Program-made: the position numbers and the translations under genes
Notes under the pieces: model-generated
Told to the model about the DNA's origin: nothing
Databases searched by the model: none
The model's input: the letters and a program-made list of their open reading frames with translations, nothing else
Shown: positions 20,147 to 59,984 of the stretch, in pieces
Layout: every line of letters begins with the position of its first letter
How positions within the stretch are numbered: position 1 is the stretch's first letter
From: Phlyctochytrium arcticum
Lineage: Eukaryota; Chytridiomycota; Chytridiomycetes; Chytridiales; Chytridiaceae
NCBI GenBank assembly: GCA_025602905.1
Contig: JAHLKI010000045.1
Location: forward strand, 1-64,000
DNA: 64,000 nt
Reading direction: 5' to 3'

Positions 20147-20211
20147 TGCCACGGTGCATAACCGTATACTATGCGCTGGAGGCGCATAGTATACGGTTAT
20201 GCACCGTGGCA
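20147..20211. repeat. Right-end palindrome of element A (30-bp arms, 5-nt loop)
   Basis: Arms 20,147-20,176 and 20,182-20,211 are perfect inverted repeats around TGGAG. The outer 14 bases TGCCACGGTGCATA are identical to those of the element B palindrome, while the inner bases differ. Viral subterminal sequence lies on the left and host-like DNA on the right. Confidence 0.92.
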
Positions 20212-21986
20212 GTCACTAGTGACATTTCGGTTTGCCCAGACTTGCGATCGTGGCTTTCCAAAACAGCTTGAACAGCCATCTCAACAAAGTGCCCAAGATA
20301 TGGAGACGTCCCCGATGAATATGAGGTTCGAGGAGTAGACCTCGGTCTCCAATATTCATCCAATGGAACCTTGTCCACGCTGTTGCTTCCCGCAAACAGG
20401 AGAGGTTTACGTGATCCGCAGCAAGTGTTACTATTTTTGGCGGCTCCGAGTTGCAGTGCGAATGTCCCCTTAGCATACATCGAACAAATCACCAGGAGCT
20501 GATTGAAAGCTTAAAGACATCGTTTTGTACAATTCCCACCCCGACCGATTTCTTATCTCGCCTTTTCCGTTTACCGTCAGCCCCGATGGAGTTGCAGCCT
20601 TGTCGGTTAGTGTTGCGCATTTCCCTCCGTCACCACCCTCATTAGCTCAGATATTTCTAGCTGGAATGTCATCATCCATAATTGCCGTGGGTCAGCATTT
20701 TTCGTAACAGAGTTTTACATCTCGTCACTTCTCTTCCTACTGGCATTTATTGTCGGCGCGTGTGTTCTCACCTACCGGGTCCGGTGGAAGAAACACACGC
20801 TCTGGGATCCCACCTTATCGACCTTAGATTCTTTTATGTTGATCAATGCCTTTGGCTTTTCGTTGGGTACGCCTCTGTATCCGCGCTACTTTAATCGTCA
20901 TTCCAAAGCTCTTATTCTATTAACCCGGATTGCAGGTCGAGGGATTGGGGCTTTGGTGCTGGCGATGGACGGATTTCCGCAACAACATTACGTCGCTTGG
21001 AGCTCGGCAATGCATGATATACCATGGACTTTTGGAAGAGTCTCGATGTGGGTTTACATCCTGTCCATGTACGTACGTTTTTGTCGTTCGTCATCATAAT
21101 ACCACGCCAACCATCACATATCAGCGTGCAAATGACTCCGAGACACTGCACGAACGTATTTCTTCCCAGTGTCAGACTGCTCAATAAGCTACGTGTCATC
21201 ATCATTGTTATCGAGGTCACTTCCATATCTGCGCTGTCGGTAGCAGCCGGCTATGCCTATGATGCGGGCGACATTGCCAAATTCGAATTCCTTACCATGA
21301 TAGACTACGGTGTCACGAGCATATACTGCGTTATTCTTGCGGGGGGATTTGGGTTCTTCGGACGGCAGATGGTCAGGATAGTTACGCTCTCGGCAAAGGA
21401 GGTGAAAGAGAACACACAGAGTGTGTTTGCGACAACCATGGCTTCTAAACGTTCTACAACGAGGTCGGACATGAGGATGAGAAAGGCTATTATAAAGGTC
21501 ATAATGCTTTGGTGGTATTCGACATCGGTCATCAATTCACCCTGCCTCCGATCCTCGTTCTGGATAGTAGATGAAGATTTTCAATTTCGCCTGCCTTTGG
21601 GCTTTCCTATGGTTTGGCGCTATCTTGGGCATATTCGCCTTTCTGCAGACTGAAGTAAGAACCCATACAAAAGGCTTTGTCCGGGTCACTCATGTCACTA
21701 ATGCTCTCTGATTCTTCCATTCTATCCTCTCAGATGTTCGGGTTGTTATGGTGGTCAAAAATTCAGAGTCTGGGTGCGGAAGTGTTCATCCCAGGGCTGA
21801 ATCTTTGGGTTCAAGTGAGTGCGTGACGGAGGCAGCGGAAGCAAACTGCACACCCTTTTGTTCACTGCTGTTGATATAGGTCGTACTAGCTTGGGGCGAA
21901 GTCTTTCCGAAAAAGGACATTGTGAGAGATGTCCTTAACGTTGGCCATTTCAGCGGGGTTGAGAGACTACAAGAGCGTAGATAATG
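20212..21986 (+). pseudogene. Host multi-exon membrane protein gene, 5' end cut by element A
   Basis: The GC-richer sequence encodes several hydrophobic segments in pieces, for example FYISSLLFLLAFIVGACVL (about 20,710-20,770), SVAAGYAYDAGD and VILAGGFGFFG (about 21,230-21,360). Changes of frame are consistent with introns, such as GTGAGTGCG to TTGATATAG (about 21,816-21,879). The last exon ends at a stop near 21,983. The number of hydrophobic segments suggests a polytopic receptor-like or channel-like protein. The 5' part appears to end at the palindrome. Exon limits are approximate and no family is named. Confidence 0.45.
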
Positions 21987-22034
21987 ACGATATATAGCGA
22001 GGCAGACGAACATTATCCGTTAATTTGTTTAAAT

Positions 22035-22232
22035 GAGATCTTTCTCCCTGACAACACCGTGAACTACGCACCCACAGGGAAAACGAATGCATTTCGAGGC
22101 ACTTCTATTCCAAAACCGCGATCGCCTTATTCTTTGAACAAGCGGAAAGTTAACTTCAATTTCAACCACCGGTCTGTTTATATAACAGGACTCGGTGGTT
22201 CAGTGTTGTTGAGCAATAACTATGTTGAGTGA
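22035..22232 (+). CDS. Open frame at left edge of element B, probably a fragment
   Basis: The frame from about 21,984 to the stop at 22,232 reads EIFLPDNTVNYAPTG and ends VYITGLGGSVLLSNNYVE. The beta-like composition would suit a structural protein end, but its 5' part crosses the host junction. An internal start (ATG at 22,035 region) is only a guess. It is probably the remainder of a truncated left-end gene. Confidence 0.25.
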   Translation, partial: EIFLPDNTVNYAPTGKTNAFRGTSIPKPRSPYSLNKRKVNFNFNHRSVYITGLGGSVLLSNNYVE

Positions 22233-22376
22233 AATATCATTGGCTGCTGGCTCGGATGCTTTCTATAGTAAACCAATCACGAAACAGATATTGATTGATA
22301 TTCTGAAAAAACCAGAATCATAGACGCAAAAAAGCTTCAAGTAAGAAAAAGATAAGCTTCAAGATATATTCAAGAC

Positions 22377-22718
22377 ATGTGCTATTTATGTCCTGAATCA
22401 AGGGCTATAGAGATTACATCGAAGAGCGGCGAAACGGCATATGTGTTACGACTACCTATATCGACCGAAGCACAATTGACAGATATAGCTATTTCTTTAA
22501 GAGGAAAAGATTTGTATGTGTACGTACCGAGGACCCCTTGTAATCGACCATTGTTCGAGAAGATTATCACCATTTCAAGTATGCTTCATCCCAGGGTCAA
22601 TAAGAAACTAAGACGGGAATTCTTGCAGTCAGGGTGGTTGAATGTCAGTGAAAGTAAAGTTGCACTTGGTTGCAACAAGAACACATTTATTGAATACTTT
22701 GAAGTAATCTATTCCTAA
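22377..22718 (+). CDS. Hypothetical protein (113 aa)
   Basis: It starts at an ATG preceded by an AT-rich leader with AAGCTTCAAG repeats like those before other viral genes. The protein is mixed alpha/beta (MCYLCPESRAIEITS, YVLRLPISTEAQL) with a basic C-terminal half. It converges on the fragment at 22,715-22,903, overlapping its end by four bases. The corresponding A region is outside the window. No family is recognised. Confidence 0.5.
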   Translation: MCYLCPESRAIEITSKSGETAYVLRLPISTEAQLTDIAISLRGKDLYVYVPRTPCNRPLFEKIITISSMLHPRVNKKLRREFLQSGWLNVSESKVALGCNKNTFIEYFEVIYS

Positions 22719-22903
22719 TATTCAATGAACTGCACATCAATGCGGCAGTAACCATCAAACGAAATATTGTTTCCAGACCAGGTCAAACTGAATGTATGCC
22801 ATGGTTTTACTGATTGTTGAGCAAACGGAGCAGAAGGTACAATAAAAGAATCAGATTGCACAAATTCACAAAATGAAGCAGATGTAGGATATGCATAACT
22901 CAA
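22715..22903 (-). pseudogene. C-terminal fragment, possibly of the fiber-like gene
   Basis: The frame has no ATG (upstream stop, then TTG). It encodes a beta-rich end, SVKPWHTFSLTWSGNNI to CRIDVQFIEY. By gene order it sits where element A has its fiber-like and small gene, upstream of the C5 methyltransferase. I infer that it is the remaining tail of B's fiber-like protein after a deletion. TATCGATA (22,948-22,955) and TATAAAAAG (about 22,928-22,938, minus strand) lie just upstream, so a different short transcript cannot be excluded. Confidence 0.35.
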
Positions 22904-23024
22904 GTATCTCTAAACGACCGTCGTCGTCTTTTTATAGAAAAAGTTACTATCGATAGGAAAAAAGCGGCTGTGATGTAAAGGAGCAAGAAAGGAAAGCGGC
23001 GGTTGTGGGGAAGTAAAAAGAGTC

Positions 23025-25326: not shown

Positions 25327-25432
25327 TATGTATGTCCTTTTGCAATATTTAAATTTTTTTTCAAGAGTACTGAAACGAACAGATCCCCATCAAGTCGGGA
25401 CGGGTATTGAGGGTGGATCCTTATTTGATGAT

Positions 25433-26018: not shown

Positions 26019-28472
26019 ATGGTCCAAACTCAGCTATTCAAGGTCGCCAAAAAGATGAGAGCCCACAACCCCTGGTTCAATCCCGTACCAGCAAGCGTTA
26101 AAGACAAGCGACCTTTGGGCTTATGGAAGGCAGGAAAATACACTTTTGAACGTGACTTCCAAAAGAGAGAAAAGTGGGACGATGAATGTAACTTGGGTCT
26201 CATCATCAACTCCAAATACATCGTGCTTGATATTGACAACAAGTCTCCCGCAAACAAGTCTAGTACTAAGAAATACTCTGAGAATACGGGGATTGATGAT
26301 TTCAACACTTTGGTGTCAGAAAACGAATTCCTTCCCAAGACTCTCTCGGTCACTACCCCTTCAGGCGGCAAGCATTACTACTTCAAATTAACTGGCGTTG
26401 ACGATGAGACCATGTTGAAGAATTGGACTGCTTGCATGTCTCACAATGACAAATTGATCGCAGTCGATATCAGAAAACAGGGTGGGTACGTCATGTGCCC
26501 GCCTAGCACCAAAGGACCAAATAGTTATATTTGGGATGATCGTGAAAATGAATACCGCGTTGAAATGGCTCCGTTGCCTCAATGGATTCTTCGCAATATT
26601 CAGACCACCATGGAAAAACATGAGACACACTTTAGCCGTCAAGAATTCATTTCATCGCCAGTGGACAACGCGCCGCTCAACAACAATGATGTAGACATGT
26701 TCAAGAAGAGTGAATACTATCTGGAACAGTTCCAAATCGACCAAAGTCCCAATCGTGACAATATGTTCATCATCACAGCGACCGCCCCTTACATGTGCAA
26801 AGTTTGTGAACGACATCATACAAACAATACGAATCATCCCTTTCTAGTGAGAAACAAAGGCACACTTCGTTTTGTTTGTCGTAGTGGCCGGGGTAACAAT
26901 GTGGTCATTGACAAAGATTACCTTTCCATGTGGGAAACGTTTGACGACAATATTACGAAACAGTTTATTTTGAAGGGTGATATTTCAAACAAGTCTATTT
27001 CGGAAACATTGATGAAGAAGATAAACAACCATGTTTATGCCAATCAAGTGAATGGGGATTGGTCATACTTCAATCCTAAAACCGGAATATGGGAAGAACA
27101 ACACCACACCTTTATTCTTCGACCGTATTTCGACCAACTGGCAGACAGTCTTAATCGACTTGGTTACATTTGTAGCCAATTGAGTGAAATTGAAACGAAT
27201 GAGGCGGCAGAGATGTGGACAGCTCGTGCGGATGTTGCGTCAGGTGCAGCCTATAGCATGAAGAAGACACGAGAGAAAAAGGACAACACTGCCGCATTGT
27301 TTGAATTGATTGGTGACAAGCGCAAGGCGTGTGAATTCAACAAAACAGCGGGTAATCTCCACTGTTCCAATGGAGTGTTCGACCTTGATGAAGGTGTATC
27401 CAGAGCGTCCCGACCCGACGACTACTCGACAATGTCTACCAATCTGGAATATAAACCTTATGCTGATCACCCTCAGGAAAAGAAGGATATTATCAACAGA
27501 TTTTTCGACGACTTTACGTTAAATCGACCAGAGTTGAAGAAATACATATTGAAAGTGATTTCAAGCGCGTTGGATCGACATAGTCGTGACCAACTGTTCT
27601 TCTTTTTTCATGGTATTGGATCGAACGGAAAATCACTACTAGCATCACTCATAGCTCTAGCGCTTGGGGATTATTCAGCACCCATTTCCAGTGCCTTGGT
27701 CAGCAAACCAAACGTGGACGCTCAGAGTGCGTCGCCCGCGCTAACGGCACTCAAAAGCATTCGAAGCGGAATTCTCACTGAATTGGAACAAAAGACTCTA
27801 TATACGGAATTCCTCAAGATGCTTGTCTGTGGCGATAGGACAACTGGGAGAGACTTGTACGAGAAAAAGATGCAGGTCATTACATTAGCGGTCAAACCAT
27901 TCATCATGTTGAATAAACTGCCAATTGTATTTGACATGACGCGAGGTTTTTGGAGAAAGGTCGTCGTTATCCCTTGTGACGCCCGTTTCGAATCAACAAT
28001 TGATCCATCAAAATCCAACGAGAAGAAGATTATCGTCGGTTTTGAAAAGGAGTTACTCAAATGTGCCGATACATTTCTCGCATTACTGATTGAAGTGTAC
28101 TTGAATGAGTACAAGAGTGAAGGGATCCGTGACGATGTACAGCCGGAGATCATAAAGCAGACAACTCTTGAATACCAAAGGTCTCAAAACATTGCTATGT
28201 CATTCGAACAATCGGTATTGGAAAAATCTGAGGGTCATATTCTCACAGTCAATGACGTCAACGCAAGTTTCCGCAAGTTCTGTAAAAACGCCGGCATCCT
28301 GCATTCCCAACATCTTGTTGATCAAGTACACGAGCGTTTGGATTCCTTGTCACCACCAACCAATCGAACACGACAAATAAAACATCATGGGAAAAACCTC
28401 CGGGGTTGGGCGAATTATAGAGTGGTTCCAAAAGGAGACATGGACTTGGCATATGCTACTGACGAAGAGTAG
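26019..28472 (+). CDS. PrimPol fused to SF3 (D5-like) helicase (817 aa)
   Basis: The N-terminal domain is a bifunctional primase-polymerase type: VLDIDNKS near residue 72 (metal-binding DxD), TTPSGGKHYYF near 115 and VDIRKQGGYVMCPPS near 152. A CxxC zinc segment (CKVCERHH) follows near residue 265. The C-terminal half is an SF3 helicase with FHGIGSNGKSLL (Walker A, near 535), ILTELEQ (motif B region) and KPFIMLNKLPIV (sensor/motif C). It would prime and unwind viral DNA. The gene is flanked on both sides (with the HTH gene) by R2 foldback repeats in inverted orientation, giving a cassette-like unit. Confidence 0.9.
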   Translation: MVQTQLFKVAKKMRAHNPWFNPVPASVKDKRPLGLWKAGKYTFERDFQKREKWDDECNLGLIINSKYIVLDIDNKSPANKSSTKKYSENTGIDDFNTLVSENEFLPKTLSVTTPSGGKHYYFKLTGVDDETMLKNWTACMSHNDKLIAVDIRKQGGYVMCPPSTKGPNSYIWDDRENEYRVEMAPLPQWILRNIQTTMEKHETHFSRQEFISSPVDNAPLNNNDVDMFKKSEYYLEQFQIDQSPNRDNMFIITATAPYMCKVCERHHTNNTNHPFLVRNKGTLRFVCRSGRGNNVVIDKDYLSMWETFDDNITKQFILKGDISNKSISETLMKKINNHVYANQVNGDWSYFNPKTGIWEEQHHTFILRPYFDQLADSLNRLGYICSQLSEIETNEAAEMWTARADVASGAAYSMKKTREKKDNTAALFELIGDKRKACEFNKTAGNLHCSNGVFDLDEGVSRASRPDDYSTMSTNLEYKPYADHPQEKKDIINRFFDDFTLNRPELKKYILKVISSALDRHSRDQLFFFFHGIGSNGKSLLASLIALALGDYSAPISSALVSKPNVDAQSASPALTALKSIRSGILTELEQKTLYTEFLKMLVCGDRTTGRDLYEKKMQVITLAVKPFIMLNKLPIVFDMTRGFWRKVVVIPCDARFESTIDPSKSNEKKIIVGFEKELLKCADTFLALLIEVYLNEYKSEGIRDDVQPEIIKQTTLEYQRSQNIAMSFEQSVLEKSEGHILTVNDVNASFRKFCKNAGILHSQHLVDQVHERLDSLSPPTNRTRQIKHHGKNLRGWANYRVVPKGDMDLAYATDEE

Positions 28473-29745: not shown

Positions 29746-31224
29746 ATGGCCGCCTTTATTGAGAATTACGTATTTTCACAGTATGCCACTGGACCCGGTG
29801 TTTGGAAACTCCAGAACAATAAGCTCGATAAACAGTTACTTTTAGACCTCTTATTGGCAAACAATGTCGATCGAGACTTGGCTGAATATATCAACAATGC
29901 CGAAATTGAATCGAATGATGCACCTATTGAATCAGAACCCCTCCAAATGGAAGCGGAAGTCGAAGTCCAGAACACCGGACCGTTGCACTTTACCCTAGAG
30001 TTTATCGATATGGTATTCAATCGAGCCAAAAACGACCCTGATCCAGAAGAGAAGCGAAAGGGCAAGACATACAAGAATGCCTTGCGATGCGCCAAGAATG
30101 CATCGATCTTTTTCGACTTGGAGAATACTGATTATATCCTTCACAAAGATCGTATTCAGAATAAATTAGATGACCACTTGGAAAACATTCTTAATACAGA
30201 AGATGACATTCAGATAATCAAAAGAAATATTCAACAACTAAAGGATTTATGCAATGGAATGTCGCTCTTGTTGAAAATATTGAATACTGATGAAAAGGAA
30301 AGAATTGAAAACTACGAGGAATTGCAAGACTTGTTTTCATATTCATCGAATTATTACAAAGATCAGATTAAGCTGATTCTCGAAGAACAGAAATCTTCTG
30401 AAGAATTCCAACGAGAAAAGTATATCCCATGGGAAATTTTGGACGAGGATTGTCGTAGTCGTATTGCCAGTGTGGATTTCGAACATTGCACTAAAGAAGA
30501 ATTCCGTGCTGTATTGATTCTATGCATCTACGTGAATCACCCTCCACGTCGCAGTCTAGAATATAAGTCACTCTCACTCAACAAAAAAGATGCCAATTAT
30601 TACGATGGTGACCGTGGTGTGCTTGTTTTGAAGGAATACAAGACTTCTGGTGTCTACGGTAGATATCATCTGAAACTTTCACCATTCGAAAAGAAGCTAT
30701 TTGAGACATACCGCAACAGATTCGGTGAAGATGATGACATGATATTTAGCGGTTGGGCTTCGAATTGGTCACGACATGTTGCGAAAATATTCGACAATGT
30801 TGTTGGGAAACCACTTACTAGTACAGATTTGCGCAAGTTGTATGTTTCACATCGCGTAGCATCCGGTACCCTTTTGTATCTTCCAGAAAAGAAACGCCTC
30901 GCCTGTCAAATGGGACACTCGGTTGCTCTGCAAACTTTGAACTATACGTTTCAACCTGTTCCTACGGAAGTTGAGAATACGGTTCCTATGGAAGTCGTTG
31001 AAGAGAATACGGATCCCGTAGTTTCTTCACCACCTAAGCGCTATTGGTCACATGAAGAGAAAGCAATACTTTACGAGTTGTGGGACGAATACGAACGACT
31101 TCAGCCTAGTGGAACTCTACAGGAATATGCGAGGGATAGTGGTCGCTTACCTGCAGATTTGGACATTGATAGAATCAAACTAAAGATCAAAAATGAGAAG
31201 AAAAGGAAGATACGTACTAACTAG
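29746..31224 (+). CDS. Tyrosine recombinase/integrase with Myb-like C-terminus (492 aa)
   Basis: Catalytic boxes are HPPRRSLEY, VLKEYKTSG, TSTDLRKLYVSH, CQMGHS and LNYTF, in the same order as copy A. The N-terminal 230 residues are much more diverged from A than the catalytic part, which would suit different DNA-site recognition. The C-terminus has a Myb-like YWSHEEKAILYELWDEY. The stop overlaps the end of the convergent integrase gene by 8 bp. Confidence 0.85.
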   Translation: MAAFIENYVFSQYATGPGVWKLQNNKLDKQLLLDLLLANNVDRDLAEYINNAEIESNDAPIESEPLQMEAEVEVQNTGPLHFTLEFIDMVFNRAKNDPDPEEKRKGKTYKNALRCAKNASIFFDLENTDYILHKDRIQNKLDDHLENILNTEDDIQIIKRNIQQLKDLCNGMSLLLKILNTDEKERIENYEELQDLFSYSSNYYKDQIKLILEEQKSSEEFQREKYIPWEILDEDCRSRIASVDFEHCTKEEFRAVLILCIYVNHPPRRSLEYKSLSLNKKDANYYDGDRGVLVLKEYKTSGVYGRYHLKLSPFEKKLFETYRNRFGEDDDMIFSGWASNWSRHVAKIFDNVVGKPLTSTDLRKLYVSHRVASGTLLYLPEKKRLACQMGHSVALQTLNYTFQPVPTEVENTVPMEVVEENTDPVVSSPPKRYWSHEEKAILYELWDEYERLQPSGTLQEYARDSGRLPADLDIDRIKLKIKNEKKRKIRTN

Positions 31225-32485
31225 GATTCTCTCTATTATAGTCATCAATTTCCTCCTGAAAGCCATCCTCGATCAAGTTCGAAGAAGGTTCCCACGTATT
31301 TGCATTTTCATCGTACCCCTTCCATTGTATCAAGTACCATACTTTTCGTCTAGACATTTTCTTATTTAATATACTTTCAATTTCGTATCTTTCAATGATA
31401 TTATCTTCATCTTCTTCATCAGCTTCTTCTTCAGTTTCAGTATTCGTATTTGCAGGTTCAGGCAAAGGATTTTCTATCTCGTTGACCTTTCGTAATTGAA
31501 ATGCGGGTATGAGCCCATGTACATCTTGTCCTAAACTGTTCTGAATCTTGTAAGCATCTTGATACGAGGGGCGTGTCGATTTGACAATTTTTGATATAGT
31601 AAAAACCTCTTTGCTGAAATAACCTTTTTTACTCCTTTTCTGGACCTTGGAAATCTGCGTTAACTTGCGCACTTTATCCCCAATAGCCAAATCTGGTAAC
31701 AATTTCGTACCTCTGCCTTTCGTCCTTGCTACTAATTGTTTCTGATAAGCTTCTTCTGGATTATCTAGAATTTGTTGAGTCGTCATGTTCCCGCTACCAA
31801 AGTGAATAGCGCTGGAATTCAAATTTTCGACAACCTTTGCCAAGGCTGCAGGCCAATTTAAATCACCGAGCTGAATACTTTTGAACAATATGTTTTTAAG
31901 TGAGCCATTGACCCTTTCTACATGCGATGAACTTTGCGGTCTCCCCGGGCGACTAAAGGTCCATTGTATTCCATTCTCTTCTACCCACGTCTGCACCAAA
32001 CCCTGGAATTCAGTGCCGTTGTCCGAATTCGCATAGACCATCTCCACACCATCCTCTAGCACATCGTCTAAGAAATCTCTAACTTCTTGCTGAGTATTCG
32101 CTTTTAGAGCTTTTGAATACAGTTTTTTACTAAAGATGTCGATCAAATTCACAATATAATTAAAACCATTATACGAATGCGACCTCATATTCACTGTATC
32201 GATTTGAAACGTCCCTGGCTTCGAGGACAGGATCGGCCTTATTGATCCTTTCGACCCAACAGGGCGAGTGGTTCGCTGCCAAATATCCTGCTTTTTCAAA
32301 AATTTCAACACAGCTCTTTGACTGATCTTTGAGTCGGGATACCGTTGACGGTAAGCATAATACAAGCGGTCACGACCATATAGATTTTTGTCGGTGTAAT
32401 AAAACTCTTTCAATTGACGTGCATCTAGATCTGTTAACTCTTTCGAATATTGTAATGACCTAGATTTAATGACAGGTACTTCCAT
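31217..32485 (-). CDS. rve (DDE) integrase with chromodomain (422 aa)
   Basis: The core has FQIDTVNM, NSDNGTEFQG and HVERVNGSLK, giving D, D and E. An SH3-like segment (IGDKVRKLTQIS), acidic linker and chromodomain (ESILNKKMSRRKVWYLIQW, ANTWEP) follow. It is the same length as copy A, and the central core is almost identical. Its substrate would be the viral ends, but this copy's right end is a palindrome rather than a plain inverted repeat. Confidence 0.93.
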   Translation of the reverse strand: MEVPVIKSRSLQYSKELTDLDARQLKEFYYTDKNLYGRDRLYYAYRQRYPDSKISQRAVLKFLKKQDIWQRTTRPVGSKGSIRPILSSKPGTFQIDTVNMRSHSYNGFNYIVNLIDIFSKKLYSKALKANTQQEVRDFLDDVLEDGVEMVYANSDNGTEFQGLVQTWVEENGIQWTFSRPGRPQSSSHVERVNGSLKNILFKSIQLGDLNWPAALAKVVENLNSSAIHFGSGNMTTQQILDNPEEAYQKQLVARTKGRGTKLLPDLAIGDKVRKLTQISKVQKRSKKGYFSKEVFTISKIVKSTRPSYQDAYKIQNSLGQDVHGLIPAFQLRKVNEIENPLPEPANTNTETEEEADEEDEDNIIERYEIESILNKKMSRRKVWYLIQWKGYDENANTWEPSSNLIEDGFQEEIDDYNRENPS

Positions 32486-34149: not shown

Positions 34150-34461
34150 ATGAGCTTCGGCAAGTTCTTAACCAAAGGCCGGCAGAATCTCAAAACCTTT
34201 TGGAATAACGCTCCATCTCATTTAAAAAGTGCACGCGGTTTTGCGGCAAGTGCTGTCGGATTCGCTAATAGAGGAAGCAAACTGATACAAGGTGTCAACA
34301 AGTCGATTCAAGAAAGCCCAGAGCTCTTCAACGAGAAGATTCGATCAACAGCGGATGACCTAACCAACAAGACGGGAAAAGGCGTAAAGAAACTAAGTGA
34401 TCTTCATGCCTCAAGTGACAAGTTTGTGGATCGACTGAGTACTAATTTAAGCGGTGACTAA
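34150..34461 (+). CDS. Small basic amphipathic virion-like protein (103 aa)
   Basis: ATG 34,150 (MSFGKFLTKGR) matches the A start; the frame open to 34,093 begins with TTG. It is nearly identical to A except for a few N-terminal residues. It overlaps the convergent ATPase gene by four bases. Confidence 0.6.
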   Translation: MSFGKFLTKGRQNLKTFWNNAPSHLKSARGFAASAVGFANRGSKLIQGVNKSIQESPELFNEKIRSTADDLTNKTGKGVKKLSDLHASSDKFVDRLSTNLSGD

Positions 34462-35168
34462 AAGTAGTCTTTGAAAATGTTACCCTCGCAATACTTGTAA
34501 ATATCTCTAGCTGTATTCTTTGAGAGATCGACAAAGCAGAATGAATATGGTGTTTTGGTACAGTCAATCAAATATTCAAGCACTTCTTTTTTCGTCGCAT
34601 GGGATGTCACTAATGTCTCTGATAGCGCTTGAAAATCCTTCTGATTGTTCTTGAATATGAACCATTCCGTTGTACAATTTTTTTGCTTTGATGAAAGCTG
34701 ACTCTTAATTGACTGGCAACAGACGATAATGCTGATATTGAAGTGACGTCCCTTGGTGAATAAGAGGTCAAGCTGTTTTGCCAAATGTTTCGATCTAGCA
34801 CCATCCGCCGCATCGTCGATGAACAGCAGTATTCGATCCTCGCAATTATTGTCTTGTTGTTCCTTCACAATAGCGGCAATACTCTCATTAGAGACATCAT
34901 CAGTGAAATAGATATTTTTGTGTTTCGTGGTCTTGGCTAGCTGTTGAATACAAGTATCATACCTAACAGTGTCTGACATAACGATAACCTTGTCGAATAC
35001 TCTGGCATAGACATCTTGAATCAAACCCGAAACTAGGGCTGACTTTCCACTTTTCCTAGGAGCGATCAGGCTGGACGACAAGGGATGACTTGGTAACGGC
35101 TCAGGGACGCGAGGATCTCTTTCAATAGCTTTCGGATTGAATATAGGCTTTACCTTGTACGTCGTCAT
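34458..35168 (-). CDS. Genome-packaging ATPase, A32/FtsK-HerA type (236 aa)
   Basis: Walker A is APRKSGKSAL and Walker B is LLFIDDAAD. It is almost identical to copy A except near the N-terminus (SSSLI in place of CCTLV before Walker A). It would drive DNA into capsids, and it is divergent from the penton-like gene. Confidence 0.92.
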   Translation of the reverse strand: MTTYKVKPIFNPKAIERDPRVPEPLPSHPLSSSLIAPRKSGKSALVSGLIQDVYARVFDKVIVMSDTVRYDTCIQQLAKTTKHKNIYFTDDVSNESIAAIVKEQQDNNCEDRILLFIDDAADGARSKHLAKQLDLLFTKGRHFNISIIVCCQSIKSQLSSKQKNCTTEWFIFKNNQKDFQALSETLVTSHATKKEVLEYLIDCTKTPYSFCFVDLSKNTARDIYKYCEGNIFKDYF

Positions 35169-36458: not shown

Positions 36459-37703
36459 ATGGCAGAAGTACCCAAGAATTGGTTGGTTTCTTCTAATCGC
36501 TTTGCCCAGCCGTATTCGAATCCTCGCCTAGAAAGTATCAGTAAATGGTATTGTATCGGACAAGATGTTTTTACGTCCAAGAATCGGCAAGCAGCACCTA
36601 TCAAAATCTCGTTACACGATGCATCTCGATCCCTTCAATTGCAGAATCTTCTGTTGAATTTCAAAGTTCAAGTATTCAAAAATGGGCAACCAGTTTCAGG
36701 GAATACGGTCATCAACAGCAGTATCGGTTTAGAAGGTTTGATTCAATCGGTACGAGTCTGTATCGGATCGAAAGAATTGCAAAAGATTGACAACTATCCC
36801 GAATATCTCAAGACTGTCTACAAGTATCTACCAAAGACGCAAAAGACATTCTTGAAGTCACTTAGTGGATATGGTGTGAAGAATATTTTTGAAACGAGCA
36901 GCGTGGCAGGATGTTCTACACATATGCCAATCGGTGTACACCACCCGGATAATGACTCTTTGTTTCATGTGTGGGCCCTCCCCAATCAAACGCTAGATTA
37001 CTACATAACCCTGAGAGATCCTGCTCTAGTATTCTTAAACAACACTGTTGATGAAGTGAAATTCAGTGAAACTTCCATCATGGTACCGACTTTCCAGCCA
37101 CCTCCCGAATTTCAATTGGCCGTCCAACGTTCGATTGCGGCAGGTAAAGAATTGTTCTATGATTACACACGGTATTCTACTCAAGAGTTGGCTTGCAATG
37201 GTTCTACTCGTCAAACTTACCGTATTCATATGAATGGTGTTCGAAGTTTGAAGGCCTTTGACTTTTCCTTTGTCGATGAAGACCTTCTTGCTAATCCTGC
37301 ACTTGACAAGAGTGAAATTTCGTCTAGTAAAGCGTTGAAAGAATGGTTCATTCAAATTGGCAACCTCGTGACCCCCTCGGGTACTACTGGATTCCTCAAC
37401 GGTCCTACCAATCCAGAGACGTTGCTCATTTCGCAGATTAAAGGCAACTACTTGTCTGCTGTAGGTGAGATGGATTTACCTTCTCTATCAGATTATCAAA
37501 ACAAGTTCTTTAGCGCTGGCTTCTCATACCAAAGTATCGATGAATCTAGTTCTGCGGCCCTTTCGTTTGTTAATACTGACAGTATTATGGAAATCACTAC
37601 TATCCACGAAGCAGGACAGCAGCCTTCTACCAACTGTCGCATGGTATTCCAATATTCTGAGAACGTCACACTCTCAATCAGTACACTAGTCGATGTGATC
37701 TAG
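36459..37703 (+). CDS. Major capsid protein, double jelly-roll type (414 aa)
   Basis: It has the same length as copy A. Substitutions cluster in short patches, for example near residues 10-35 and 165-180 (FHVWALPNQTLDYYI against FHVWGTPGQSLEYYI). The patches fit exposed loops, with the rest nearly invariant. It follows the coiled-coil gene by 47 bp. Capsid assignment is by gene order, beta-rich pattern and the related relic at 52.3 kb. Confidence 0.83.
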   Translation: MAEVPKNWLVSSNRFAQPYSNPRLESISKWYCIGQDVFTSKNRQAAPIKISLHDASRSLQLQNLLLNFKVQVFKNGQPVSGNTVINSSIGLEGLIQSVRVCIGSKELQKIDNYPEYLKTVYKYLPKTQKTFLKSLSGYGVKNIFETSSVAGCSTHMPIGVHHPDNDSLFHVWALPNQTLDYYITLRDPALVFLNNTVDEVKFSETSIMVPTFQPPPEFQLAVQRSIAAGKELFYDYTRYSTQELACNGSTRQTYRIHMNGVRSLKAFDFSFVDEDLLANPALDKSEISSSKALKEWFIQIGNLVTPSGTTGFLNGPTNPETLLISQIKGNYLSAVGEMDLPSLSDYQNKFFSAGFSYQSIDESSSAALSFVNTDSIMEITTIHEAGQQPSTNCRMVFQYSENVTLSISTLVDVI

Positions 37704-39499: not shown

Positions 39500-39571
39500 C
39501 AGTGCCACGGTGCATATTGACACTGACTACCCACCCGGGTGGGTAGTCAGTGTCAATATGCACCGTGGCAC
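39500..39571. repeat. Right-end perfect palindrome of element B (72 bp)
   Basis: Two 36-base arms meet at CCCGGG (39,533-39,538) with no loop and no mismatch. The outer GTGCCACGGTGCATA is shared with element A and the inner 20 bases are not. The bases to the right continue directly as copia integrase coding sequence on the minus strand. Confidence 0.95.
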
Positions 39572-40590
39572 TTATCAACTCGAACAGAAACTGTTGCATC
39601 TCGGCATTGCAGAACTCTTTCCCATTGTCCGTGCGATATGTGCCAACCAGTGGTCCTGTTGGATTTTTGCGCATCACCACATCACGTAGATAACACCGAA
39701 GAGCTTGGATGATTGAGCCGGCACTTTTGTCCAGGAGTAGCGCGACGTAGGTATACGAAGTGTGGAGATCTGTGAAGAGGACGAAGTATTGATAGCCTTC
39801 TTCAGTAGGTGTATCCAGAAAGACGACGAGATCAGCAGCTACGACTTCAAATGGTCGACTAGTTTTACGTTCCGAATGGGGAAAAGAAGCCCGATGTGCC
39901 TTGCCAGTGTAGCACGCTGGGCAGGGTTCGAAGTCGTCGGTGGAAAGCGTTGTGGGAAAGTTCTTGCACTTCTTGGACATGAGTTGCAAGACGCGATTGC
40001 GAGGATGGCCGGTGCGAAGGTGCCAGAGACGACGATCATCCTTTTTCTTGAATGGTGATGGAGGTGATGCTGTAGCGGAAACATCGCCAGGAATCAAGGT
40101 GTCGGTTGCAAAAGCGGTGCCTATGTTTCCGTTTTCGCCTGGAAGAGCAGGAAGCAAATCCCTATTTGTATCCATAGTTGAAGCCGAATACGCGGTTCCG
40201 ACCCCCCGAAACTGACCCGGACGAGCAAGAGTAACATCAATATCCCACATCAATGTTGTTGGCGACACGTTCAAAATCTCCTTTGTGAGCTCATGCTGGA
40301 GTTTGACCGAGTCCTTGGCAAAAGTGGTGATAATATCTGCATCCGCAAGACCCCGAACGCTCATCAAGTTGGTAGAAATTTCTGGGACATGAAGAGCGGG
40401 AACTTCAATAGTGGCCGAAGTCGGGGTGGTCATCTGGATTGTTCCCTCCCCAGTTGCTGGAATGATCACCGAGTTTGCCACCTTTACCCGTCGCTGTGTA
40501 GGACCATAGCAAGTAAACAACGACCGGTCCTTGGTTATCGTTGTTGTTGCCCCACTGTCAAGGAGCCACCGCACACGTTTCTGTCGTGGG
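39572..40590 (-). pseudogene. Truncated Ty1/copia pol (protease and integrase part)
   Basis: On the minus strand, LLDSGATTTIT is the aspartic protease. LWHLRTGHPRNRVLQL with CPACYTGKAH is the zinc-binding pre-integrase domain, and VVAADLV to RTDNGKEFC is the integrase core. Coding stops at the element B palindrome (after FLFELIS), so the rest of the integrase, reverse transcriptase and RNase H are missing. They do not appear on the other side of element B either. The pol frame is displaced relative to gag around 40,590-40,620. Confidence 0.85.
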
Positions 40591-43581: not shown

Positions 43582-44249
43582 CTCTAATGTGTCATTCATA
43601 AATCCAGTCCTGGTCGTTCAATATGGATATGTAAGCGTACTTTGGCACCAGACAAATGGAGACGGGCTGTGTGAATGTTTTCGATGTGCACAAGTCAACC
43701 TTAAATGAGCGGTGGATTGATATAACACTGGATTTTCCGGGGAATTCCAACACACATCATTTTATAACCCTCCGCAGCCTTTCGAGAGTAATGGAGTGCC
43801 TACAGCGACGGTGGGTAGAGAAAGAGAAGATGAAGGAACATTGTTCTCTGCATACTATCCGAAGAGGATAAGTTACAAACAATACACAACATATTTTCAA
43901 CAAAATCACACCCCGTCGCTTGCTACATATATTCACGTCCTTCTCGAACCGGTCGACTTTTCCTTCCACACTCTCCAAAGCCTCCGGAGGGAAACCAGAG
44001 TGAACACCTATGTTCAAGAGAGTAGCGAGACTAGACCGCTGTGGTGAAGTCGTTCAGACTGTTCAACTGCGGATTCGTCGAATACGAAAATCTTCAATTG
44101 GCTTGGGAACGGTCATTGGTGCATACACAATACTCGGTCTTCTCTTGCCCACTCTTATCTAAGGTTCCAACGGTAGCAACGACTATTTTCAGTTTCTCCT
44201 TCCGGAATTGATACTGATGAACTGGACCGAAGAACGGTCAGACCCGACA
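43582..44249. other. Intergenic region without a supported gene
   Basis: About 670 bp lie between the convergent CRN1 and CRN2 genes. Short open frames on both strands have no recognisable domains, and I see no repeat or RNA gene. Confidence 0.5.
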
Positions 44250-50600: not shown

Positions 50601-51485
50601 ACAACGTACGCCAGGCGACTCCTAGAACATTTCCGGATGGATCGGGCAGAAGCTGCCCGGACCCCCATGGTATGCAGGTCCCTGGATCCGGAAACGGATC
50701 CATTTAGACCTTACGACCCGAAGGATGAAAAGGATGTCCTATTGCCGCAAGACAATCAATACCTTCCAGCCATTGGTGCGCTCATGTTCTTAGCCAACTC
50801 TACCCGCCCAGATATAGCATTTGCTGTAAACCTCCTTGCTCGTTACTCCCAACAACCAACAAAAAGACATTGGACTGGAGTACAGACAGTTATGCGTTAC
50901 CTACGTGGAACGCTTGATCTCGGTTTACTATATCAAGCCAATTGCGATGCTAAGGATGAAGGGATTGTTGGATATGCAGATGCTGGTTTTCTGTCAGATC
51001 CGCATACCGGCCGATCACAAACTGGATATGTGTTCTTGCGAAATGGAACCGCCATTAGTTGGAAATCGACCAAGCAAACTACGATAGCCACCTCTACCAA
51101 CTATTCCGAAGTCATGGCATTACACGAAGCTACTGAAGCATGCCTTCATATCCGATCACTGGCCAGTACCATGCGCTCCAACACAGGAGTTAATGACAGA
51201 GCATCCTCAGCGGCACCGACAATTATCTATGAAGACAATGAGGCTTGCATCGCGCAACTTACAACAGAAACACCGCACATCTCTCTAAAGGGCAGGGCTC
51301 GATATTATATTGCCAAGTTTTTCCATATCTGCGAACTTTTGGGAAAGGAAATTGATGTGCGAAAGGTGTCTTCATCCAACAACTTGGCCGATTTATTCAC
51401 GAAGAGCTTGGGTGCTGTTGCCCACGAACGACTAGTACACGGAATCGGCCTCAGACGTGTTTCCACCACCCTTCAGGGGGAGTGA
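47628..51485 (+). CDS. Copia pol: protease, integrase, reverse transcriptase, RNase H (1285 aa)
   Basis: Domains in order are protease YYDPGSTHTVL near residue 80, pre-integrase HTRLGHPGLGMM near 235, and integrase core FRYFQVIGDAT, RLDNAAEF and HEQNGAAENL. The RT follows (WRKAIFSEL, ARWVFDLKRNG, KARLVAQGFSQ, YGLKQAGRLWF and catalytic YVDD near 940), then RNase H with ADAGFLSD and TNYSEVMALHEA. The frame is open throughout. The apparent start is an in-frame GTG; the true product is a Gag-Pol fusion. Confidence 0.93.
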   Translation: MKKLWRELQASKGNGNQNGNQNGNQNGNNYPQGNPGANLMIANFVDAAPAVAEFSDDPCFNMIDASINSSSTTNDTSKCTAYYDPGSTHTVLRDKQFFKTLRPEEVFNLTTIAGQGIGIRGHAVFKLPNGTVISDPDALYCADSPRNLISVRSIAASGYKDFKDATAEEGEDSFWLVKIYPQGRMERLERFTNNGNFLYKTIVKPVAVAVEQGASIVHINAVVANTTLLNQYQLWHTRLGHPGLGMMRRLISAVRDCPLSVHKITTAAGKHCLCIPCTEGKLIRQPFVEKTKYSPPAFLSHLFSDVCGPFEPPCGSFRYFQVIGDATGQFTEVFLLASKNLTCARIISTVSQLKGYFPDNPIRTIRLDNAAEFMSATFLNYCEAAGIKAEYSVPYVHEQNGAAENLVKRIVWIARPLLLQTNLPASAWGHAVLHAGKLLRYRPAIHTQVSLMELKDGRPPSVAHLKTFGCAVWVPIEPPKRQKMGPQRRLGIYVGFDSPSIVRYLAPETGILLKARFPDCVFDDELFPFLGALGAASAKTDTETIIRMFRSVDSPNPSFIHHDPPTQESETAVQQILDFQRIAQNTPDGFVNTSRVTTTPFLPPSHNMPEVLPTSNAVPARDTAPVAGRKRGRPAGSKDKQPRQRRIVAAGSRGSEENVSAGTNMESVEQSITNGSDQVAPGQQTPLEGVDVPQIDEPSSFTQEVIIQSAKAVLAKASQSQDNTLESVRDKEIKIPSSYEEARASPEWLSWRKAIFSELSSLRERNVFGPIQRKPPGVKCVGARWVFDLKRNGQGQIVRFKARLVAQGFSQRPGVDYEETTSPVLDGMAYRFLMAFLASNSKRVRARITDIVTAYLYGKLDKEVYIRVPEGFTSDGKALSDDHCMRLIQALYGLKQAGRLWFIHLRDFLLSKGFKQDQLFPCLFFKYLSDGQFVIIAIYVDDLTFIGTDKAVEDATAAVSAKFDTKDLGQSTYCLGIQIEYLKDGGIMLHQTTYARRLLEHFRMDRAEAARTPMVCRSLDPETDPFRPYDPKDEKDVLLPQDNQYLPAIGALMFLANSTRPDIAFAVNLLARYSQQPTKRHWTGVQTVMRYLRGTLDLGLLYQANCDAKDEGIVGYADAGFLSDPHTGRSQTGYVFLRNGTAISWKSTKQTTIATSTNYSEVMALHEATEACLHIRSLASTMRSNTGVNDRASSAAPTIIYEDNEACIAQLTTETPHISLKGRARYYIAKFFHICELLGKEIDVRKVSSSNNLADLFTKSLGAVAHERLVHGIGLRRVSTTLQGE

Positions 51486-52303: not shown

Positions 52304-52729
52304 ATGCGCAGTCATGACACTCCATTGGACTTGAAGATTACATATCTGGGATTGGAATCGATTATCCAAAGTATGACAATTCGAGCCGGAGGTGAAGTTG
52401 TTCAGAAAATTGATAACTATCCGGCATATCTCAATATTGTTTGCAAGAACTTGCCGGTTGGACAAAAGAAACTCCTTGATCAATTGTCTGGTTATTCCAA
52501 CACAACTGTCACCATGAATATGCATCCTTGGATAGGCTTTTTCCATAGTAATAATGATTCCTTTTTCCATGTATGGTCGTTGCCAAAGCAAGCCCTTGAG
52601 ATTTCTATAACGCTCGCAGATCCAGCAACCATGTTTACAAGTACTGGAGTGGCGGAAATCAAAGTGTCAAATATTCGCTGTCTCGTCCCATACATCACAC
52701 CACGGCGCAGGTTTGAAAACTCCAGATGA
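52304..52729 (+). pseudogene. Relic of a double jelly-roll major capsid protein
   Basis: The frame carries LGLESIIQSMTIRAGGEV, QKIDNYPAYLNIV, LLDQLSGYSNT and DSFFHVWSLPKQALEI. These align segment by segment with residues of about 85-200 of capsid proteins A and B (LEGLIQSVRVCI, QKIDNYPKYLKTV, LKSLSGYG, DSLFHVWGTPGQSLEY). The rest of the gene is missing. Higher divergence and GC content show an older insertion. Confidence 0.85.
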
Positions 52730-56734: not shown

Positions 56735-57145
56735 TCACGCACGCGTAGAGCCACTGCCACGACCCCTTCCTCCGCGTCCTCCTCGACCTCTTCCTGCAGC
56801 CTTGGACTTTGGAGCTGGAGTTTTGCGCACCTTTCCACACTTCTTCAACACATGGTCATATTGGTGCTCGGTTGACCCGCACCCGGCACATCGACGCTTC
56901 TTGGGCGGCTGGGAAACGTCCAATGGAAGATCGGACGCGTCAGCAATCCCGGCACCTTCAACCTCCAAGTTCTCCACACTTCGACAGAGAGCGAGCAAAT
57001 CGGCCATGTGGTCATCATCATCCTTGCTAAAGTCGATGAGCTCGTCTTCGGACTCTGGATCAGACTGAGGAATGGGCTGGTCTCCTTCAGCGGTCGGCAC
57101 ATCTTCTGGATCCGCACCGTCCTCCGCTGCGCCCAAGTCCTCCCT
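56735..57145 (-). pseudogene. C-terminal fragment of a retrotransposon gag-like protein with zinc knuckle
   Basis: The minus strand encodes acidic segments, then RRCAGCGSTEHQYDH with a Cys/His cluster near a zinc-knuckle type, and a Gly/Arg-rich tail (GRGRGGRGGRGRG). The frame runs on into the element C helicase on the other strand (to 57,268), but that part is a shadow. The true protein seems cut at about 57,145, where GC content changes. Confidence 0.5.
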
Positions 57146-58258
57146 TCTAATCCTCATCTTTTTGCATTCACTGATGGTGTTTACGACCTTGTCAAAGGAG
57201 AGTTTCGTCCTTTTGAAGCCGCGGATTACATCTTGCACACTTGCGGTTATCCTTTCCCTAGCGGACAAAATGCAGACATTGGAAAAACAATCTTGTCATT
57301 CTTTGAAAGCATTTTTCCATCCAAAAAAGTCCTTGACTATCGACTTTTTCAACTTGCCAGATGCTTGTACGGGAAAGTTGTTGAAGAGTCCTTCTACGTC
57401 CAAAAAGGAGGCGGCAGAAATGGAAAAGGTGCTGAAACCACGCTAGTTACATCTACTTTTGGGACGTATTTCTACTTTATCAAACCCGAAAATATTACAA
57501 CTAGAAGCAGAGGTCAACGTGATGCACCAAATGCGCAAATGTTCAACTGTTTTGGTAAGAGATATCTATCCACTTCCGAACCTCAAGTTGGTCAATATTT
57601 TGCTTCCGACGAAATAAAAATTATTCGAGGCAACAACCCTTATCCTGTCCGGACACTTCATGGTAAGCCTATCACTTTCCCTATTACTGGCTCTCTGCAC
57701 ATACAAACAAACGAAGACCCAAAATTCGACCGTATTGATACTGCTATTGCTCTTTCCGCCAAAATGGTCCCATACACCGTTACATTTGCAGAATGTGATA
57801 ATGAAGAAGAGGATACGGCCGTTGAATTAGACGACGATGAAGATGAAAAAATTGTTCGTCAGGTTAATCCACAACTTAAAAAACTTCTATCTTCTCCAGA
57901 GTATCGAGATACATTTATTCTCATATTAATGGACATCTTTAAAGCAACGTTTGTAAAGAAAGATGGAAGTTTGGATTTCTCAATTCAAGTCCCAAATGAG
58001 GTGAACGAGTTTACACAGAAGAATCTGGTTAATTCTTTAACAGTTGCGAAGTGGTTCAAAATGACTTATAAATTGACAAACAACCCCGACAACAAAATTG
58101 AAAGAACCGCCATTTATGGGAAGTATATGGCAGATAACATTGGATCCACAAATCTGTGTGAGCGAAACACATTTTACAAAGAACTGCGAGCGGTAGTGCC
58201 GGAGAGAAAGATTCGGGGCGCTCGATACTTTGTAGGGATATTATTGAAGACTGATTGA
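57145..58258 (+). pseudogene. D5-type SF3 helicase, 5'-truncated
   Basis: Recognisable sequence begins at HLFAFTDGVYDLVKGEFRP, typical of the D5-N region before SF3 helicases. YVQKGGGRNGKGAE is the Walker A motif near 57,410, RYLSTSEPQ the Walker B region, and GSLHIQTNEDPKF the motif C/sensor Asn. An acidic insert (EEEDTAVELDDDEDE) follows. Upstream in the same frame lies only antisense gag-like sequence, so the N-terminal (primase) part is lost. It is a different lineage from the SF3 helicase of element B, making a third replicase type in the window. Confidence 0.85.
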
Positions 58259-58395
58259 TTGTGGGTTTGATGAAGAGGGGGGCAGGATATTGGTTCTTTC
58301 CATCCGCAATCCGGGATATTGGTTCTTTCCTCTTTCTTTCTCCTTTCCATCCGTGTGACTTATCCACATGCACATGACTTATCCACATTCTTGTC

Positions 58396-58403
58396 TATAA
58401 AAG
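58396..58403 (+). promoter_or_regulatory. TATA box (TATAAAAG)
   Basis: It lies about 97 bp before ATG 58,493 and about 30 bp before a plausible transcription start. Two direct copies of GACTTATCCACAT lie just upstream (58,367-58,389). Confidence 0.5.
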
Positions 58404-58492
58404 AGCATCAACCTTTCCCCTTTCCTTTTTCATTATCACTCGAGATAAAAACAGATATTCGGGCGTTATAAAAGAGGTCGTAGGAAGGGCGG

Positions 58493-58840
58493 ATGCAATA
58501 CCCTAAAAAACCTAACATCAACATGGGGAACCCAACAAATAATCAAAAAACGGCAGCGGAAGCAAAAGAGCATGTTCTGTATGTGTGGTGCCTTGTCAAC
58601 ACGGTCTGCTACAAAATGGGATTTCTATCAAAGAAACACATTAAAGAAACAAGAGAAGTAATGAAGGATTTGTCTTGGGATATTTTCGAAATGGACGACG
58701 AAACTACAAAGGAACTTTTGGAACATTTCAAAGATGATGCCGAAATGTTTGATGTCCTAAAACAGAAACGCAAAGAAAAGGGGCAATTTGGCTTCATGAG
58801 GTGGTTAGAGAAAGAAATTCATACCTATGGATTAGTGTAA
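58493..58840 (+). CDS. Hypothetical helical protein of element C (115 aa)
   Basis: It follows a TATA box and is open from ATG to stop. The protein is helical and charged (HIKETREVMKDLSWDIFEM, EHFKDDAEMFDVL). The start could be the second ATG (MGNPTNN). No family is recognised. AT-rich codon use matches the helicase gene. Confidence 0.55.
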   Translation: MQYPKKPNINMGNPTNNQKTAAEAKEHVLYVWCLVNTVCYKMGFLSKKHIKETREVMKDLSWDIFEMDDETTKELLEHFKDDAEMFDVLKQKRKEKGQFGFMRWLEKEIHTYGLV

Positions 58841-58867
58841 AAACATGTCATTTTATTGGACAGTGTC

Positions 58868-59014
58868 ATGAAGAGATTACAAGAGTTACAAGAAAACGAC
58901 GTATATGATACAGATTTGGCGAATTTGAACCAATTTCTGTATATTTTGATGACGGTTGGAAAAAGCAGATCAGCTGCTTGGAATATCGAATTATGGAAGC
59001 TCGATACTTTGTAG
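58868..59014 (+). CDS. Very small ORF ending in a duplicated helicase tail (48 aa)
   Basis: ATG 58,868 encodes MKRLQELQENDVYDTDL and ends at TAG 59,012. The last 70 bp (from about 58,995) duplicate the helicase 3' end (58,217-58,290: GCTCGATACTTTGTAGGGAT and following) in another frame. It may be a gene fragment fused to the duplication rather than a functional gene. Confidence 0.3.
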   Translation: MKRLQELQENDVYDTDLANLNQFLYILMTVGKSRSAAWNIELWKLDTL

Positions 59015-59054
59015 GGATATTATTGAAGAAGTGATTGATAGTGGGTTTGATGAA

Positions 59055-59432
59055 GAGGGGGGCAGGGTGGGGCAGGTAGGGGGGCAGGGTTTTAAAAAAG
59101 TGCCCCCCACTCGGTACATGTAAGAAAAGAAAAATTAATTAATAAAGTAGTGTAGTGTTTCTATGTAGGTAAAAAAAAGGGGGGCAGGGGGGGCAGTTTT
59201 TTTGTATGTTTATGATTCTTATAAAATTTTTATTTGAGTGAGAAGTAGTTCAGAACGTGTGAACTACTTATGAGTAGTGAAAAACCTATATCCCCAGGGA
59301 CTTTACCTCGAAGAAGCTGCCCCCCCTGCCCCCCTACATGTAAAGTGGGGGGAAATATAAGATAAAAGTATTATTCACTCGAGAGATGGAGTGAAAAACA
59401 CCTGCCCCCCTTTCTGCCCCCCTTTTTTGCTG
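59055..59432. repeat. R3 foldback repeat of element C
   Basis: Nested inverted segments are CCCCCCACT...TACATGTA (59,103-59,122) with TACATGTAAAGTGGGGGG (59,335-59,352), GGGGGGCAGGGGGGGCAG (about 59,179-59,196) with CTGCCCCCCCTGCCCCCC (59,317-59,334), and a central AAGTAGTTC/GAACTACTT (about 59,242-59,269). It lies downstream of the helicase, comparable to R1 and R2. The sequence is unlike either. Confidence 0.7.
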
Positions 59433-59798
59433 AACGGGGGAATTGCGAAAGTGTAGTTTTATCGATAAGCCAGAATTGAATTAAATCGATAATAGAAAAT
59501 ATTTATAAAAGAAGTGGAAGTCCCGTAGGAAGGCGACCCTGAAAAAGTCTAACCCGGTTAGAAAATGGAGCGATTGGAAGGATGCTTACGTAAGCGGATG
59601 GACACATAGAATGCGGAATATTGGATAAAAGCATTGGAATATGGGAGAAAATGGTGTGCAGTATAAAGTAGGGTCGAGTTTATGCGGATATGGTGTAGTG
59701 AGGAAGTCCCGTGAGAGGAGCGGCTCGGCTCGATGAGTAATGGAGGGAGATGACTCGTGATTTGTAAGATGACTCGATATTCGATGGAGCGACCTGAG

Positions 59799-59918
59799 AT
59801 GGATAGCTGATGGATAGCTGATGGATAGCTGGTCAAATAGCTGGTCAAATAGCTGGCATATAGCTGGAACATAGCTGGCATATAGCTGGCATATAGCTGG
59901 TCAAATAGCTGAAATAGC
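59799..59918 (+). repeat. Short tandem repeats of TAGCTGG units
   Basis: Units of 11-14 bp such as GATGGATAGCT, TCAAATAGCTGG and CATATAGCTGG are repeated about ten times with variation, ending 2 bp before the terminal palindrome of element C. Confidence 0.8.
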
Positions 59919-59920
59919 CC

Positions 59921-59984
59921 CTGTCATAGTGCAAAAAAATAGCACATAGTATATACTATGTGCTATTTTTATGCACTATGACAG
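59921..59984. repeat. Right-end palindrome of element C (64 bp, one mismatch)
   Basis: Arms of 32 bases meet at TATA with a single mismatch (position 14). The outer arm CTGTCATAGTGCA resembles GTGCCACGGTGCA of A and B, with GTGCA in common. Host-like DNA follows at once. Confidence 0.9.

Follow-up and report, generated by a model that had tools for sequence, protein, structure and literature searches.

Terminal palindromes of Polinton-like elements in the chytrid Phlyctochytrium arcticum as likely extended forms of hairpin telomeres

The window considered here, i.e. the whole stretch of DNA analysed (positions 1-64000, at the start of contig JAHLKI010000045.1 of Phlyctochytrium arcticum, hereafter C45), harbours three viral elements, A, B and C, whose genes and end structures are collected in Table 1. 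On its right side, each of them ends in a long palindrome lying directly against host DNA. Comparison with similar ends in the rest of the host genome (31.5 Mb in 91 contigs; loci are given as contig:position, with C numbers for contigs, and L numbers designate fetched loci) suggests that these palindromes represent hairpin telomeres of Polinton-like viruses in a fully extended, double-stranded state, inserted by a DD35E integrase, a reading to which we assign a probability of roughly 0.72.

Table 1. Genes and end structures of elements A, B and C in the window.
Feature	Position	Strand	Remarks
Element A (Polinton-like)	1..20211		cut by contig start; only right end inside window
Helicase of A	3400..6300	+	profile match (Herpes_ori_bp)
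Tyrosine-recombinase-like protein of A	10248..11690	+	R262, K291, R354, H382, Y391 conserved with B; presumed catalytic from known motifs
Retroviral-type integrase with chromodomain of A	11697..12962	-	same D96, D155 and E190 in A and B, at DD35E spacing; presumed catalytic
A32-like packaging ATPase of A	14908..15615	-	Pox_A32 match
Major capsid protein of A	16895..18136	+	low-confidence model; structural matches to viral major capsid proteins
Right terminal palindrome of A	20147..20211	+	30-bp arms without mismatch around the asymmetric 5-nt centre TGGAG
GTCAC, expected target duplication of A	20212..20216	+	inferred from 5-bp rule; left copy outside window
Primase-polymerase plus D5_N domain protein of B	26019..28469	+	profile match
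Tyrosine-recombinase-like protein of B	29746..31221	+	similarity to A protein
Retroviral-type integrase with chromodomain of B	31220..32485	-	compared with A
A32-like packaging ATPase of B	34461..35168	-	95% identical to A
Major capsid protein of B	36459..37700	+	94% identical to A
Right terminal palindrome of B	39503..39570	+	TG...CA, no mismatch
CTTAT, expected target duplication of B	39571..39575	+	inferred from 5-bp rule
Capsid protein remnant of C	52343..52723	+	similarity
D5_N/primase-helicase remnant of C	57008..58255	+	similarity
Right terminal palindrome of C	59922..59983	+	TGTCATAGTGCA class, a single mismatched pair
GACTT, expected target duplication of C	59984..59988	+	inferred from 5-bp rule

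An earlier note on this DNA had described palindromes at 20147-20211 and, with one mismatch, at 59921-59984, both of which are borne out by recomputation, as well as at 39500-39571, where the 72 bp are indeed perfect but the coordinates are off by one, the true position being 39501-39572. No other palindrome of the window is as long as these three, the runner-up having an 18-bp arm with up to two mismatches allowed. Taken as a single strand, each forms one long hairpin, and none of 200 shuffled sequences matched any of them in single-strand DNA folding (z from -12.9 to -15.8). The pair broken in the palindrome of C is intact in near-identical copies elsewhere, for instance at C6:103483. Left ends of B and C were looked for and none was recognised, and the contig start truncates A, so that the target duplications given for the three window junctions are expected ones.

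The shared outer-arm motif already seen in the window holds at the scale of the genome: GTGCCACGGTGCAT has 12 exact matches against 0 for its reversed control, while TGNNACNGTGCATA has 117 against 7 and TGTCATAGTGCA has 41 against 0, numbers on which a chance origin is rejected. Among the 100 TGNNACNGTGCATA matches listed out of 117, 82 make up 41 palindromes, each a plus and a minus match with, as a rule, some dozens of bases between them, and 18 are single, six of which look like chance. As for TGTCATAGTGCA, 38 of the 41 matches fall into 19 pairs, and two of the three single ones were fetched. Altogether, 61 palindromes were examined, 42 of the TGNNACNGTGCATA class and 19 of the TGTCATAGTGCA class, including four from contigs beyond the 100 listed TGNNACNGTGCATA matches; the pairs at C26:12112, C30:333728 and C36:208076, together with C30:335596 (one mismatch), lie outside this set. 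The search patterns start with TG, so that the terminal 5'-TG...CA-3' is partly selected, which does not apply to the duplications immediately flanking it.

Several loci of other shapes were encountered during this census. Half palindromes, broken off at the centre or only a few bases away from it, are found at L043 (C1:448170), L055 (C1:1744805), L070 (C4:367072), L081 (C13:357590), L126, L121 and L125; two of them retain the outer arm plus two bases of the inner arm, and L125 has GAAGAT repeats at its flanks. At C3:484907 (L061, positions 1442-1514), the two arms of a single palindrome resemble unlike end types that meet in the middle, and a viral inverted repeat lies on either side (815 bp inverted at 82%; 74% over 146 bp close to the palindrome). 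With its head-to-head arrangement, this junction has the appearance of two fused telomeres. The palindrome at C36:185253-185318 (L112) is apparently chimeric as well, one arm being of the TGTCATAGTGCA class and the other of the TGTCACAGTGCA class.

Wherever the two ends of an element could be paired, both are palindromic. The palindromes are therefore not the right-end feature for which the earlier note took them, and the check that it proposed, a search for palindromes at left ends of other copies, gives a positive answer for the paired elements. When all 23 pairings among the examined palindromes within 45 kb on one contig are counted, 15 show a duplication of exactly 5 bp directly outside 5'-TG...CA-3', and the other eight a flank match of 0-1 bp. 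Fourteen of the 15 duplications are independent, given that C3:1361088/1387068 has the same flanks as C1:1308257/1323975, and the elements bounded in this way span 1.7 to 39 kb. A further pairing, read by eye and outside the 15, joins the half palindrome at C1:448170 to C1:451264 with the duplication GACAA. The exactness of these duplications indicates that a retroviral-type integrase joined precise ends, and thus that it was the palindrome in its full extension that was linked to the host, at an exact position. Variable opening of the hairpin at the junction, which the earlier note had proposed in the form of a nick at a variable point followed by fill-in and joining, is rejected on the same ground. 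Inverted repeats accompanied by target duplications, which it had set against hairpin ends, do occur in several copies; however, the outermost repeat sequence is the palindrome itself, and the duplications therefore correct the integration step rather than refute the hairpin idea.

These pairings also bear on the proposal that the palindromes are free-standing palindromic miniature inverted-repeat transposable elements (MITEs) lying by chance beside viral genes. A few palindromes or half palindromes without a recognised partner do exist, as this proposal would have it, but it is contradicted by the 15 pairs that each bound a single insert with one 5-bp duplication, and it is barely credible. 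Moreover, in the 16 palindrome-bounded intervals (the 15 with a duplication plus C6:103483), matches to the proteins of A, a measure by which divergent genes can be missed, are found for the capsid protein in 12, for the integrase in 10 and for the recombinase-like protein in seven, the first of these counts speaking against MITEs too. The sixteenth interval, C6:103483/127688, has identical inner repeats and no duplication, its host flanks being inverted copies of each other; C15:729592 (L104) shares the left flank of C6:103483-127749 (L098, L099).

The sequence of the arms is itself informative. Since the outer motif was used for selection on both arms, mirroring was counted only at the other positions, the central three of each arm being left out: 6 of 1028 arm pairs are broken over the 61 palindromes, and 6 of 629 over the 37 distinct palindrome sequences, 28 of the 61 being without any mismatch. 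In 17 comparisons between nearest variants of equal length, 26 differences are mirrored and five are one-sided. Inner arms are unlike between families, yet they are mirrored up to the centre, and the asymmetry that remains is confined to a few bases there. A symmetric protein-binding site on open linear DNA, bound by the integrase, the packaging machinery or the recombinase and kept symmetric by selection, would account for the outer motif TGNNACNGTGCATA, which is common to otherwise unlike inner arms and sits where the integrase must bind. Nevertheless, selection on a bound sequence predicts neither inner arms that vary freely between families while staying mirrored to the centre nor inverted centres, and we consider this explanation unlikely. 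Alternatively, cruciform-dependent conversion in the host chromosome could have made the arms alike once the element had been inserted, and some loci cut near the palindrome centre are what chromosomal cruciform or hairpin damage would give. Against this stand copies with the same flank that differ by a one-sided change, although in two cases only (C3:1361088 versus C1:1308257, and C25:302763 versus C2:1321699). Changes that seem to postdate insertion are thus not mirrored, and chromosomal conversion appears very improbable.

The asymmetric centres occur in both orientations. At C1:1308257 and on C26, the two ends have identical plus-strand centres, which are opposite when read outward, whereas on C23 and C25 the centres at the two ends are reverse-complementary and hence the same when read outward; by eye, C7 and C6:775917 (one base different) are likewise the same outward, and C18 is opposite. 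The centre of A, TGGAG, is also in the opposite orientation to the CTCCA read outward at both ends on C23. Besides, the two ends of one element may carry unlike palindromes. In the C18 element (duplication GTCAG), the inner repeats are identical over 40 of 40 positions and are followed by two different palindromes, each internally matched, while C2:456723/480823 (duplication AGCTC) has two unrelated ends, each palindromic, and a blast comparison of its two end loci of 3 kb gives no match at E 1e-10. A third element with unlike palindromes, C2:1321699/1340481 (duplication GTGCC), is given less weight, as its right end looks like a retrotransposon on the inside.

Long inverted repeats are found at both ends of some elements, namely on C15 (1118 bp, 100%), C4 (1150 bp, 97.3%), C23 (at least 1.57 kb, 99.6%) and C40 (at least 3.9 kb, 100%). 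In contrast to these, the ends of C3:1361088/1387068 share the palindrome only, with no longer inverted repeat, and the inner 40 bp of the two ends agree at 10-13 of 40 positions in five pairs. The C40 repeats (C40:7173-32114; L020, L021) take in the whole capsid gene at both ends, and similar inverted capsid genes lie at C1:1325439/1341274.

Such variety is relevant to the case of a circular or concatemeric genome with one palindromic junction, whose two borders the integrase would nick, gap repair then copying the palindrome to both ends. Several elements do combine identical end palindromes with 5-bp duplications, as this scheme implies. It predicts, however, centres that are always opposite when read outward and palindromes that are always identical, unless changed after insertion, and neither the C23 and C25 elements, with the same centres, nor C18 and C2:456723/480823, with different palindromes, conform to it; we hold it to be quite improbable. 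With both relative orientations present, neither the copying of a single junction nor exchange between ends is accepted as the only process.

Hairpin telomeres, in turn, would bring these features together in the following way. In the linear viral DNA, each end would be one strand folded on itself, with some 20-32 paired bases and a small centre, the fold being either covalently closed, as in poxviruses, or open with a self-priming 3' end, as in parvoviruses. One arm would serve as template for the other, and the end would stay mirrored while drifting independently of the other end, whereas the centre would be asymmetric because the folded strand has no template there and, being unpaired, would become inverted at random (flip and flop). 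A nick at the inner border of the palindrome, followed by copying around the fold, would yield a blunt extended 5'-TG...CA-3' end, and the element's own DD35E integrase would insert such ends into host DNA, cutting it with a stagger of 5 bp. Copying around a fold would lead to mirrored arms, central asymmetry, both orientations and unlike palindromes on one element, and none of the rival explanations above accounts for all four. The interpretation given in the earlier note may therefore be retained in part: hairpin telomeres are likely, in view of the mirrored and diverse arms, the two centre orientations and the unlike palindromes of single elements, while random opening at integration finds no support.

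Several points nonetheless weigh against this reading. The evidence is confined to one host genome and to integrated copies, and no relatives were confirmed in viral contigs with the capsid, integrase, ATPase, primase-helicase and metagenomic capsid queries, in a search that may omit records very near the window. Clean comparison of the centre orientation at both ends concerns four elements only. Exchange between ends acts as well, as shown by the long identical inverted repeats of several elements. With regard to enzymes, a ResT-TelK_cat telomere resolvase gave 0 matches (control positive in 1 of 14 genomes), a Pox_A22 resolvase gave 0 as well, with a control that was equally silent, and none of the 20 sequences scanned from the window had a Pfam match to HUH-type/NS1 Rep, no genome-wide search having been made. 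The integrase and the recombinase-like gene are each detected in a part of the intervals only; no requirement of the palindromes for the latter is thus apparent, and of the two, the integrase would be the broader candidate for an enzyme that acts on these ends. Finally, the contrast with polymerase-bearing elements is drawn from the mapped borders of the palindrome-bounded ones only, and two matches to the protein-primed polymerase PF03175, at C3:282466 and C26:400414, lie about 5 kb outside a palindrome.

PF03175 itself has no match in the 16 palindrome-bounded intervals, the genome having 14 matches elsewhere (12 over the cut-off). Beside one of these, no palindrome with arms of at least 13 is found at C25:412300-414600, nor any with arms of at least 14 at C25:414000-418282, a weak contrast as the border of this element is undefined and C54 is a near-identical copy.

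Concerning the viral genes, the model of the recombinase-like protein of A (mean predicted local distance difference test score, pLDDT, 67) has Cre and poxvirus topoisomerase as nearest folds, which are not significant (best Foldseek E 0.05), and none of 6797 candidates is a relative with E <= 0.001. The capsid model of A (mean pLDDT 60) gives 53 structural matches with E <= 1e-3, many of them named major capsid protein, at template modelling scores near 0.3, and the search for capsid relatives returned three, one named for Powellomyces hirtus. Fragments included, the host genome has 59 matches to the capsid protein and 16 to the recombinase-like protein. On the minus strand, window positions 99-1004 match the N-terminal part of an avian adenovirus fibre (E 5e-8), a possible virion spike of A. 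Between B and the genes of C, short frames at 42073-46128 carry LLVYANxEAxxxDKDEPEPKHW/F motifs and presumably resemble Crinkler-type proteins; a copia-like retrotransposon frame, read by eye, lies near them at 47745-51485. Elsewhere in the genome, the host RPB2 frame (L115, C46) has 1589 residues and probably holds an intein: among the matches listed, most relatives cover 68% of the query, and two long ones covering 99% carry PF14890. For part of this RPB2, the highest identity among the 120 matches listed of 3263 is 91%, with Spizellomyces sp. 'palustris' over 68% of the query, ahead of Gaertneriomyces (82%) and Powellomyces (80%), whereas a longer Puccinia protein (68% identity over 57%) ranks first by score; on these figures, the host is read as a chytrid fungus close to Spizellomyces.

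Some of these traits are shared with known systems. The rolling-hairpin ends of parvoviruses likewise have terminal palindromes, inverted centres and possible self-priming, whereas the chytrid elements possess an integrase and a large capsid protein of another type, and the sequences scanned from the window give no match to the Rep nickase family. Perfect palindromes at linear ends are also a trait of protelomerase phages such as N15, and a tyrosine-recombinase-like gene is present in many of the chytrid elements; these differ in having no ResT-TelK_cat match and no recombinase-like gene found in 9 of the 16 palindrome-bearing intervals. The long terminal repeat ends of retroviruses share 5'-TG...CA-3', a DD35E integrase and a short duplication, but what lies at the end of the chytrid elements is an inverted palindrome, carried by a DNA virus.

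With Polintons/Mavericks, Polinton-like viruses (PLVs) and endogenous mavirus-like elements (EMALEs), the chytrid elements share the capsid gene, the A32-like ATPase, the rve integrase (present in A and B) and short duplications, and some of them also have long terminal inverted repeats; the pairing of a double-jelly-roll type capsid protein with an A32-like ATPase, a trait of Polinton-like viruses, is found here through the Pox_A32 match and the low-confidence capsid model. They differ in that their ends are complete palindromes, that a longer inverted repeat may be absent and that no match to the protein-primed PolB lies inside the palindrome-bounded intervals. The 6-bp target duplication of Polintons/Mavericks is replaced by exactly 5 bp in the 15 pairings; 6 bp is given as typical of the rve integrase, and 5-6 bp duplications are reported for PLVs (PMC12220804), while EMALEs with both a tyrosine recombinase and an rve integrase have predominantly 3-5 bp (PMC8547959). 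Among chytrids, one Polinton-like element has already been reported from Spizellomyces punctatus (PMC7805220). In poxviruses, asfarviruses and chloroviruses, the genome ends in hairpins whose pairing is imperfect and which exist as flip and flop (PMC8956199; PMC11814242), and both forms of the centre occur here too, but the chytrid ends are known only as extended palindromes in integrated elements with an integrase, in a genome with 0 matches to Pox_A22 under a silent control. Hairpin or palindromic ends of Polinton-like viruses are not reported in the titles and abstract openings among the matches listed, a search outside which supplements and subscription journals lie, and the terms 'hairpin' and 'palindrom' are absent from the main texts of PMC8547959, PMC12220804, PMC10120064, PMC7805220, PMC9952930, PMC4642659 and PMC12945077. 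The hairpin passages in a review of giant viruses (PMC11814242) concern giant viruses and transcript ends, and the 'hairpin' of another paper belongs to a large algal virus.

It is conceivable, although rather doubtful, that a Polinton-like lineage swapped protein-primed ends for independently evolving hairpin telomeres, which its integrase would process at the TG/CA borders and insert. To our knowledge, both the way in which ends are copied in Polinton-like viruses lacking a protein-primed polymerase and the origin of hairpin-ended large DNA viruses from Polinton-like ancestors are open questions. The many preserved viral ends, with their unequal palindromes and inverted centres, make hairpin replication testable by sequence comparison and simple gels, and the protein-primed polymerase matches of the same genome, outside the palindrome-bounded intervals, may offer an internal contrast. 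If this scenario were true, the lineage would be a surviving link from Polintons with protein priming to poxviruses and other large DNA viruses with hairpin ends.

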